Part shown: one piece after another, positions 8,918 through 30,645 of the stretch
How positions within the stretch are numbered: position 1 is the first letter of the stretch
Layout: each line of letters begins with the position of its first letter
Source: an uncultured Lachnospiraceae bacterium
Lineage (GTDB): Bacteria > Bacillota > Clostridia > Lachnospirales > Lachnospiraceae
NCBI GenBank assembly: GCA_944381535.1
Contig: CALWLN010000219.1
Coordinates: 1-35,744 of the forward strand
DNA: 35,744 bases
Direction: 5' to 3'
Translations under genes and position numbers: made by a program
Notes under the pieces: model-generated
What the model was told of the DNA's origin: nothing
The model's input: only the letters and a program-made list of their open reading frames with translations
The model's database searches: none

Positions 8918-8979
8918 GTTACTTTTCACGGGATGGGGAAATATACAACTGGTAAAATTTTTTTTGTTTCCTCACCCCG
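8918..8979. repeat. Remnant of the 29251-29562 palindromic element in the aroD leader
   Basis: Positions 8918-8956 match 37 of 39 bases of the right end (reverse strand) of the 312-bp element at 29251-29562, starting with GTTACTTTTCACGGG. At 8967-8979, TTTCCTCACCCCG resembles the inner half of the opposite terminus. The whole interior is missing. The remnant lies between the divergent aroE promoter and the aroD start and ends 27 nt before the GTG. Confidence 0.75.
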
Positions 8980-9005
8980 CAATATGGAAAGCGAGGAAAC
9001 AGAGC

Positions 9006-28228: not shown

Positions 28229-29077
28229 TTACATGGTGATACGGTCGGAAGAGCGGCTGTAATAGTACACATGGTCCGATAGGATTTCCTCGGAGCTTAA
28301 CTGAGAACTGTTCACCTCCACAATCATCCGGTTGAAGTCCGCCGGCTTCATGTGGACGGTGGCGGGAACCAGAAGTACCTCGTGAACGCTGCTGGGAATG
28401 ATGTAAAGATCGGCGTCCAGACGGTCGGAAAGCTGTTTTAACAAATGGTTGTACAGAAGGCAGGAAGCGCCCAGATATCCGCTCTCATTGGTCAGCATGT
28501 ACATGGGGATGGGAGAGCTGACGGAGAAGGAGGTCTGCTCAAAGCGGGAGCCCAGAAGAAGGGGTGTATTTTCCAGGGCCAGCCTGTAGATGGCGTCCCG
28601 ATCGGTGTTCCAGAACCGCAGATGGTCGTTGGTCAACAGGATGGTGGCGTTGGTGGGGCCGCCGGATGTGACCAGGCAGTAAAATACGATGGCCAGGTCA
28701 AGAAAGGGAATGTGTGGAATCCCTAGTAACAGCTCCCGGTTTCGCTCATAGTGTATCAGCTTATAGGCAATGCGGGAGGAAACATTTTGAAATTTTTTGA
28801 AGAAAGAAAGGTCGATGGGTTCTGTGGGCCGATAGTGATAGTAGGTGTCAAGAATTTCCTGGAAAACGGAGGGGAAGCTCATTCCTCTCTGTAAGTCCTC
28901 GTAATATTCCTTCAGATAAATGGTGGGAGAGATATTAAATCCCGATTCTAAAATGGTTAAGCCCTCCACAGCCACCTGGTTGTTGCGCAGAATCCTGTGA
29001 ACCGTGATGGTAGTGTCCGGTGGGAAATGGCCCTTAAGCTCGGCTAAAAGGGTTGCCTGAAATGTTTCGTATGTCAT
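28229..29077 (-). CDS. DUF5688 family protein
   Basis: 282 residues, function unknown. It has the family outline I recall from Lachnospiraceae: TYETFQATLLAELKGHFPPDTTITVHRILRNN, ILESGFNISPTIYLKEYYEDLQ, LTNDHLRFWNTDRD, and DLYIIPSSVHEVLLVP near the end. No signal peptide or membrane span. The start at 29077 has AGGAGGT just upstream; a longer frame to 29248 runs through the promoter and terminator and is rejected. It may be expressed from the promoter at 29184-29212. Convergent with spo0A. Confidence 0.82.
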   Translation of the reverse strand: MTYETFQATLLAELKGHFPPDTTITVHRILRNNQVAVEGLTILESGFNISPTIYLKEYYEDLQRGMSFPSVFQEILDTYYHYRPTEPIDLSFFKKFQNVSSRIAYKLIHYERNRELLLGIPHIPFLDLAIVFYCLVTSGGPTNATILLTNDHLRFWNTDRDAIYRLALENTPLLLGSRFEQTSFSVSSPIPMYMLTNESGYLGASCLLYNHLLKQLSDRLDADLYIIPSSVHEVLLVPATVHMKPADFNRMIVEVNSSQLSSEEILSDHVYYYSRSSDRITM

Positions 29078-29147: not shown

Positions 29148-29183
29148 GATAGAAAAATCCACGCAAATGATCTGCGTGGATTT
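29148..29183 (-). terminator. Minus-strand intrinsic terminator, overlapping a promoter
   Basis: AAATCCACGCA (29155-29165) pairs with TGCGTGGATTT (29173-29183), an 11-bp perfect stem with a 7-nt loop. On the minus strand it is followed by TTTTTCTATC. It would stop transcripts coming from potD. Its right arm touches the -10 of the next promoter. Confidence 0.8.
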
Positions 29184-29212
29184 ACTGTATCACGATTTTG
29201 AAAAAAATGCAA
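29184..29212 (-). promoter_or_regulatory. Predicted promoter of the DUF5688 gene
   Basis: On the minus strand TTGCAT (29212-29207), a 17-nt spacer and TGATACAGT (extended -10, 29189-29184). The start would fall near 29177, inside the right arm of the terminator, so its own RNA would lack the full stem and escape it. Confidence 0.6.
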
Positions 29213-29250
29213 GTGGTTTTTCAAGATTTGACTGCAGGCTTTCCGCAAGC

Positions 29251-29562
29251 GTTACTGTTCACGGGGTGGGGAAATTAAAAAAGTTTGTTCACGGAATCAG
29301 AAGGATTTTTAGGTTTTGTCTGGAGGTCGCCCTGGGTGGCGCATTTGTTAACGCAGACACGCTCCCGCTCAAATCAAGACGCAACGGTACTAGGCTCGCC
29401 GCCCGTAAACGGTCGGTTCGCCAAGTGCCGGCGTCTTTCCATGGTCTGCTTATAACAAATGCGCCATCCAGGGCTACTTTCCAGTCAAAAGCTAAAAAAG
29501 TTCAAACCTCCTGTGAAAACGGCTTTACTAGTTGTATATTTCCCCATCCCGTGAACAGTAAC
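29251..29562. mobile_element. 312-bp palindromic MITE-like element with 8-bp target duplication
   Basis: Both ends begin GTTACTGTTCACGGG and match at 24 of 25 bases in inverted orientation (29251-29275 and 29538-29562). CCGCAAGC flanks both sides exactly (29243-29250 and 29563-29570), an 8-bp target duplication. The inner arms are also complementary over about 120 bp (for example GCGCATTTGTTA near 29340 and TAACAAATGCGCC near 29453), so the whole element can fold into one long hairpin. It has no credible gene. Together with the promoter and terminator above it fills the 506-bp gap between potD and DUF5688. The parent transposase family is unknown; 8-bp duplications occur in several IS families. 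Confidence 0.85.
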
Positions 29563-29583
29563 CCGCAAGCTCCGGAAAAACCA

Positions 29584-30645
29584 TTAACCGGCAGACTTTA
29601 TTTCCTTCCACAGTTCGTTGTAGAGGTTGGTGGACTCCTCATCCAGGGATTTTAATACTTCGCAGTTCTCCAATACCTCCTGGGGCGGGAAGATGGTGGT
29701 GTTCTGTTGAAGCTCCGCATCCATGGTCTCGTACAGGGCCTTGTTGGGGGTTGCGTAGTATACATAGTCAAAGTTCAGCTGCGCAATATCCACTCGGCAG
29801 AGGAAATCCAGGAATTTCTCCGCATTCTCCTGGTGCTTGGCGGTCTTGGGCATGAACCAGGAGTCGATCCATACGTTGGAGCCCTCTTCGGGGATGGCAT
29901 AGCCAAGATTTTCGTTCTCCTCTATGGCCAGGCCCGCCTCGCCGGAGTAAACCAAAGCCATGGCGGCGTTTTCGGAAATCATCTCATCCTGAGCCTCATC
30001 CACCAGATAAGATTGCACCATGGGTTTCTGGTTGAGGAGGATTTCCTGAGCCTCCAGAAGTTCCGCTTCATCGGTGGTATTTAAGGAGTAGCCTAAGTAT
30101 TTTAGAGCTGCCATAAAGGAGTCCCGAACACTGTCCGCCATGATAACCTGGTCGCTGTATTTCTCATTCCACAGACAGGACCAGGTCGTTAAGTCGGCCT
30201 CATCAACCATGTTTTTGTTGTAGAGAATGCCTACCGTGCCGAAGAAGTAGGGCATGGAGTATTTGTTTTCCGGGTCGAAGGACTTGGAGAACTCAAAGTA
30301 GGTCTCGTCAAGATTCGCCACGTTGGGGATGTTGTCAAAATTCAGCTCCAGAACCTCGCCCTCGTTGATCAGCTTTTCCACCATATAATCGGAGGTACAG
30401 ATCAGATCATAATCGATGGAGCCGGCTTTATATCTGGAGTACACATCTTCCGGGGTCTCGGATTCGTCATATTTTACCTGGATTCCCGTCTCCTCCTCGA
30501 ACATGTCAAGGACCTCGGGGTCAATATACTTGCCGTAGTTTAATACGGTCAGGGTGTTTTCATCGTCGGTGCCGCCGCAGCCTGCAAGGGGCAGCGCGGA
30601 CAGGATTCCCACAGCCAGAAGCGCAATCATTTTTTTCATTTTCAT
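29584..30645 (-). CDS. potD: Spermidine/putrescine-binding lipoprotein PotD
   Basis: Captures polyamines outside the cell and delivers them to PotBC. 353 residues. Lipoprotein signal MKMKKMIALLAVGILSALPLAGC with lipidated Cys23. The periplasmic-binding fold begins LTVLNYGKYIDPEVLDMFEEETGI, and YFFGTVGILYNKNMVD and WIDSWFMPKTA are typical of PotD/PotF. AAAGGA lies 9 nt before the ATG; the gene starts 4 nt after potC. The MITE-like element begins 22 bp past its stop. Confidence 0.93.
   Translation of the reverse strand: MKMKKMIALLAVGILSALPLAGCGGTDDENTLTVLNYGKYIDPEVLDMFEEETGIQVKYDESETPEDVYSRYKAGSIDYDLICTSDYMVEKLINEGEVLELNFDNIPNVANLDETYFEFSKSFDPENKYSMPYFFGTVGILYNKNMVDEADLTTWSCLWNEKYSDQVIMADSVRDSFMAALKYLGYSLNTTDEAELLEAQEILLNQKPMVQSYLVDEAQDEMISENAAMALVYSGEAGLAIEENENLGYAIPEEGSNVWIDSWFMPKTAKHQENAEKFLDFLCRVDIAQLNFDYVYYATPNKALYETMDAELQQNTTIFPPQEVLENCEVLKSLDEESTNLYNELWKEIKSAG

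Follow-up and report, generated by a model that had tools for sequence, protein, structure and literature searches.

What is the long palindromic block that lies behind potD in the window (the whole stretch of 35,744 nt analysed here), which transposon does it derive from, and does its fold act as DNA or as RNA?

Structure of the window element

The element (29251–29562) is an inverted-repeat block of 312 bp, bounded by exact copies of the octamer CCGCAAGC at 29243–29250 and 29563–29570 (no strand assigned, scored 8/8). Comparison of the two 25-nt ends showed that the left terminal inverted repeat (GTTACTGTTCACGGGGTGGGGAAAT, 29251–29275, plus strand) and the right one (29538–29562, minus strand) are complementary at 24 of 25 positions (96%). 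The first-pass annotation had reported both the 25-bp ends with 24 matches and the exact 8-bp target duplication, and both reports were confirmed. Inside the ends, a left hairpin arm (29276–29351, plus strand), common to the MITE copies of the own genome (G000) and of a congener (G005), and a right arm placed by the fold (29450–29537, plus strand) are MITE-specific. They enclose a conserved core hairpin of 98 nt (29352–29449, plus strand). The arms had been described as complementary for about 120 bp; the long pairing is there, but it covers about 100 nt on each side, is interrupted and surrounds a separate central structure. RNA folding, a check proposed with that description, gave a result far beyond chance for the 328-nt stretch (-170.1 kcal/mol, z -14.3, equalled by 0 of 100 shuffles), and the single-stranded DNA fold of the 312-nt element was similarly extreme (-93.1, z -16.9, 0 of 100 shuffles).

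The block had also been said to hold no ORF. A mechanical ORF of 162 aa (29167–29655, plus strand) does cross it, yet no reading frame is preserved: across nine MITE copies, the longest plus-strand run without a stop varies from 47 to 104 codons, and the copy lengths of 310, 312, 317 and 319 bp differ by frame-breaking amounts. Therefore, this ORF is not gene-like.

potD (29584–30645, minus strand) encodes a protein with an SBP_bac_8 domain, and its stop codon lies 21 bp from the element. On the other side stands a DUF5688 gene (28229–29077) with the same reading direction as potD. None of 67 loci with potD relatives carries the core. At the nearest relative (L072, 88% identical), the potD stop is followed by the same leader region that flanks the window element, and in L072, L074 and L075 the stop leads directly into the leader of the next gene, without the block. 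Syntenic loci without the insertion, which had been proposed as a check, therefore exist, yet the search gave no empty allele exact to the base, because the target octamer is missing from all 13 downstream stretches of relatives that were checked. The leader of the DUF5688 gene contains a stem-loop with a T-rich tail (29155–29183), which is kept in L072–L075, the relatives that lack the element.

Copies and target duplications

In the own genome, at least 41 places are related to the window element, by a hand count from 83 alignments, in which the arms match on both strands, with 40 of 59 candidates scored. At least 20 of these places end no more than 2 bases from a contig end, which indicates that the repeats disrupt assemblies. 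The congener G005 also has full copies. Among 145 genomes searched, nine matched the element, and the seven other than G000 and G005 matched around the core only.

When 20 copies were tried, 12 were two-ended and eight lacked one end. When the highest-scoring combination of candidate ends was chosen for each copy, six of the 12 (L001, L002, L005, L018, L021 and L065) had exact duplications of 8 bp, each with its own sequence, and L032 matched at 7/8. By eye, a shift of one base brings the duplications of L050 and L062 into register, and that of L014 reaches 7/8 with a shift, while no target duplication was found for L003 and L004. The inverted ends, the 8-bp duplication that varies from site to site, the short non-coding sequence, the many copies and a full-length element with the same ends (described below) are the features of a MITE, so 29251–29562 is a real non-coding mobile element of this type, although movement itself was not seen. 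The MITE-like form seen by the first-pass annotation thus holds, and the search for other copies that it proposed was positive. Its view that the insertion is fairly recent is supported by the other copies, the same-ended element and the unfilled syntenic loci.

Several variants of the element were noticed. The window itself contains, at 8918–8990, a short remnant that shares the end of the MITE (GTTACTTTTCACGG) and has a mirrored end close by, but lacks a core; it is a relative of the MITE that is either decayed or core-less. Three own-genome copies, L014 (1501–1850), L193 and L196, have a further stem-loop, about 40 bp long, in the same core loop, a hairpin nested within a hairpin, and the three inserts are nearly identical in sequence. 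L036 (G000:C16:30992) and L048 (C218:4368) are palindromes of about 27 bp in which two MITE-like ends stand nearly back to back with almost nothing between them. At L047 (G000:C215:1–144), a MITE end lies shortly before the start of an ORF that resembles a large serine recombinase, and the contig ends there.

The probable parent transposon

A full-length element with the same ends, another of the proposed checks, was found in G005 (L304:304–2611). It is 2308 bp long with an open transposase frame of 581 aa, and its two ends are identical over the first 20 nt. The left end of the MITE is 96% identical to it over 25 nt at one end and over 23 nt at the other. The 581-aa frame matches DDE_Tnp_IS66 (PF03050) with 64.4 bits, and a second transposase of this branch scored 71.8 bits (cut-off 23.1 for both). 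Neither reached the NCBIfam IS66 equivalog cut-off of 180 (137.1 and 172 bits). A 100-aa ORF adjoining the transposase gene matched no Pfam family, and this parent element contains no core.

Matches to the G005 transposase at E <= 1e-20 occur in at least 12 of 299 family genomes, with as few as four candidates scored per genome and with some matches partial or only 25–28% identical; one of the 12 genomes has a 28% match as its sole match. Of the 14 transposase loci, 13 were examined; among these, GTTAC was present on both sides in six, at one end in four (one of them GTAAC) and on neither side in three; the ends of the branch read GTTACWGTTCA. Duplications were readable at five branch loci and were exact (8/8) at two of them (L340 and L345), while the others showed none (G005 L304/L338, 4/8; L339 and L344, 2/8). 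The only branch match of the own genome is a 315-aa frame beside a single GTTACTGTTCA end.

IS66 family ends start with 5'-GTAA. Nine ordinary IS66 loci in these genomes have GTAA ends (GTAAGCG, GTAAACG and GTAAATG, from a search that took in GTAA and GTTA starts only) with 8/8 duplications. The branch shares with the family the 8-bp duplication, the IS66 DDE transposase domain and ends starting GT-A. It differs in its ends, which are GTTACTGTTCAC rather than GTAA (the MITEs of G327 have GTAAC), and in transposases that fall below the NCBIfam IS66 cut-off. Ordinary IS66 elements were ruled out as the parent by their GTAA ends. Judged from the shared ends and the transposase homology, the parent is most likely the IS66-like branch with GTTACWGTTCA ends. 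These results indicate that the MITE belongs to a divergent IS66 branch and that, in itself, it adds to an established kind of element.

The core is a separate and widely spread structure

Matches in other genera are confined to the centre of the element. In an alignment of 21 core sequences from seven genera, 98.0% of 441 cells were paired, a value that is flattered since the structure was read from the same alignment. Two-sided changes were found at 14 of 21 pairs, with a covariation score reached by none of 500 shuffles, and the signal vanished when the pairing partners were slid by 1–3 columns. The number of further pair types (16) was below the shuffle mean (19.6). Twenty-five alignment columns are invariant among the 21 sequences.

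Searches with covariance models (R1 and R2) located the core in at least 117 of 299 family genomes (apparently Lachnospiraceae), scoring no more than 13 candidates in each genome. The own genome has 38 cores with the first model and 35 with the second. In a sample of the phylum, the core was present in five of 398 genomes: four belong to the own family, including the own genome, and one (G714) to another family. Among 40 chosen genomes, for which up to 109 candidates were scored, 18 family genomes had from 3 to at least 109 copies (G021, at least 109; G327, at least 107), G714 had nine, and 21 had none (18 picked after empty earlier searches, plus three congeners). Within one genus, G000 and G005 are core-rich and G001–G003 are core-free. 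By these sequence comparisons, the core is a separate conserved structure with a far wider spread than the MITE.

Phage or plasmid cargo was ruled out by the following searches. Against plasmids, blastn with the element returned five records without a full match; two of them, from Lachnospira eligens, match the core only, and L139, taken from one of these, holds three cores. The G064 core and the transposase as queries gave no plasmid match. Against phages, the element gave a single chance-like match, and a strict core pattern had zero matches in a viral contig collection.

Arms and ends around the core

The copies of the core within a genome were compared with their arms. Among the 10 copies of G070, the core is 0.92 identical and the two arms of a copy pair with each other at 0.81, while arms of different copies are 0.58 identical, against 0.51 for shuffled sequences. 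G070, G347 and G159 together show core similarities of 0.81 to 0.92, own-arm pairing of 0.75 to 0.86 and between-copy arm identities of 0.56 to 0.58 (shuffled 0.50 to 0.56). Arms are less divergent between copies in G021 (0.70), G064 (0.70) and G327 (0.76), with shuffled values of about 0.5. At L192 (G000:C74), the own genome also has a core that lacks GTTAC ends and whose unrelated arms are complementary to each other. The core is thus not tied to this MITE: it is found with other arms and ends even in the own genome.

The block could still be an ordinary IS66-type MITE and nothing more, with the wider core matches being older MITEs of the same transposon. The core elements of G327 fit such a history: they have GTAACAGTTCAG ends and 8-bp duplications that are 8/8 in three of seven (one by a one-base shift) and 7/8 in one. 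However, the arms are near-unrelated in G070, G159 and G347, the core elements of G064 and G021 have other ends, and the IS66-like branch occurs in at least 12 of 299 genomes against at least 117 for the core. These observations already favour core-rich genomes in which GTWAC ends were never part of the elements. We consider this explanation improbable, and the reading of the core as a family of its own is preferred.

One core element of G064 (L209, G064:C107) has an 11-bp direct repeat, GCTCTTTTGAG, just beyond its TAG..CTA ends. This hints at a different transposase in the G064 lineage; by eye, the repeat is absent at the other G064 copies.

The arms might also be complementary purely through template switching at imperfect palindromes, which would make the core a functionless relic of old MITEs. 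Template switching is reported to create and maintain hairpins (PMC8794818). Correction of this kind would be expected to leave only a weak G-U preference, as was found (see below). It should also erase the conserved bulge and the internal loops. In the 21 core sequences, however, 25 columns stay invariant, and the core remains similar in G070, G347 and G159 while the arms become nearly unrelated. Such an origin for the whole pattern is unlikely.

Pairing and orientation

RNA helices accept G-U pairs but not A-C pairs, so the two mismatches were counted in arms and cores. Two of the 83 distinct arms had fewer than 13 pairs and were set aside; in the remaining 81, the inner 18 pairs contained 20 G-U and 33 A-C. 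The 90 distinct cores contained 31 G-U and 18 A-C, and 22 of the G-U cells fell at one pair, which had U-G in 22 cells and A-C in none; without this U-G-rich pair, the core counts were 9 G-U and 18 A-C. In longer gapped alignments of the arms of 91 elements, G-U exceeded A-C (84 versus 58). The controls, which are small sets, gave 13 G-U and no A-C in 10 tRNAs, and 37 G-U to 18 A-C in terminator-like hairpins. The elements (51:51) differed clearly from the tRNAs (Fisher P 0.0005; P 0.00006 to 0.013 over all versions of the count) and slightly from the terminator-like hairpins (P 0.04).

Orientation was read for the 70 of 85 elements that are flanked by called genes on both sides: 25 are sense to both genes, 22 are antisense to both, 17 lie between convergent genes and 6 between divergent genes. 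Sense and antisense were balanced (25:22, binomial P 0.77).

These counts bear on whether the core is a structured RNA, either cis-acting or a small RNA, that has spread through the family, with the MITE copy being a passenger RNA gene or 3' UTR element. Conserved unpaired stretches together with compensatory pairs do resemble RNA families, and the absence of A-C at the U-G-rich core pair and the G-U excess in the long arm alignments are what an RNA would show. In contrast, A-C outnumbers G-U in the inner arms and in the rest of the core, and the orientation is even. Rfam 15 had no match on the element at the gathering score, and a relaxed search over 29200–29620 gave an unrelated lncRNA model as its best hit (18.3 versus 60 bits, E 0.11), with none credible. 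A structured RNA is unlikely, though it carries more weight than the other alternatives discussed here. Because wobbles are hardly favoured over A-C and the orientation is even, the evidence leans to DNA pairing: action of the core as DNA is the most likely reading, although the pairing and orientation data do not settle it. The suggestion in the first-pass annotation that the fold may matter as RNA found no support, with G-U hardly exceeding A-C and cores facing both ways relative to genes.

Possible partners and a proposed mechanism

A Y1 transposase was considered as the partner of the core. Y1_Tnp matches were present in 63 of 117 core genomes and 112 of 182 others (odds ratio 0.73, P 0.23), and 54 of the 117 core genomes, some of them incomplete, had no match; this lack of co-occurrence ruled the candidate out. 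A partner gene flanked by cores was also looked for: in the six of 20 stretches whose ORFs were listed and judged by eye, from their first residues only, the ORFs were mostly host-gene-like and none was transposase-like.

As the probable joint explanation, we favour a MITE from a divergent branch of the IS66 family, together with a separate core family that would act as a DNA hairpin. An IS66-like transposase would act on the GTTACTGTTCACGG ends of the MITE and leave 8-bp target duplications, and the window copy would have been inserted in this way immediately behind potD. The interior of the MITE is a long palindrome with the 98-nt core hairpin at its apex, the MITE having either captured the core repeat or grown around it. 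The core hairpin may extrude on single-stranded or supercoiled DNA, where a putative trans-acting factor would recognise it through the conserved bulge and loops. The arms would need only to pair and could drift in sequence, and either selection or correction through template switching would maintain their complementarity. That the core would act as DNA is suggested by the pairing statistics, the orientation and the nearly all-or-none distribution.

Relation to known repeats

The core resembles REP/REPIN repeats with RAYT in being dispersed, intergenic and palindromic, sometimes with inverted neighbours. It differs in a much longer hairpin, in another conserved motif and in having no link to a Y1 transposase. 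A reading in which a single-strand transposase of the RAYT/REP type uses the core as its signal, and in which the family as a whole is a large kind of REPIN, would explain the many intergenic copies, the inverted neighbours spaced by a few hundred bases and the near all-or-none presence. However, Y1_Tnp is independent of the core, the hairpins are well over 100 nt against 20–40 bp, and the window copy has 8-bp duplications, which together make this the least probable of the alternatives, and a very unlikely one. Mobile-looking repeats with a conserved fold are also known in bcr1 of Bacillus cereus and similar repeats, which belong to a different bacterial group; the likeness lies in this general form.

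No description of the core repeat was found among the papers listed from an open-licence PMC library, and PMC3733652 and PMC6006769, searched for Clostridia, gave no passage on such repeats. The novelty rests in the core, which has no Rfam entry and which, in a large family, can number about a hundred in a single genome. Tentatively, the core may represent an undescribed class of large DNA-hairpin repeats, kept by a putative trans-acting factor, present in over a third of the family genomes with tens to more than 100 copies in many, moving or renewed with changing arms, and picked up by IS66-like MITEs. If so, it would form a REP-like system whose recogniser is of a new kind. The core poses the puzzle that some species are core-free and others have about a hundred copies, and that it changes little within a genome while the arms, in some genomes, change almost entirely and yet pair. 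A factor confined to some species should exist, and it could be searched for by comparing core-rich with core-free relatives.

Outside the family, the cores of G714 are dispersed and have their own arms (L313, L317, L321, L325, L329 and L333), which points to transfer or to an older origin.
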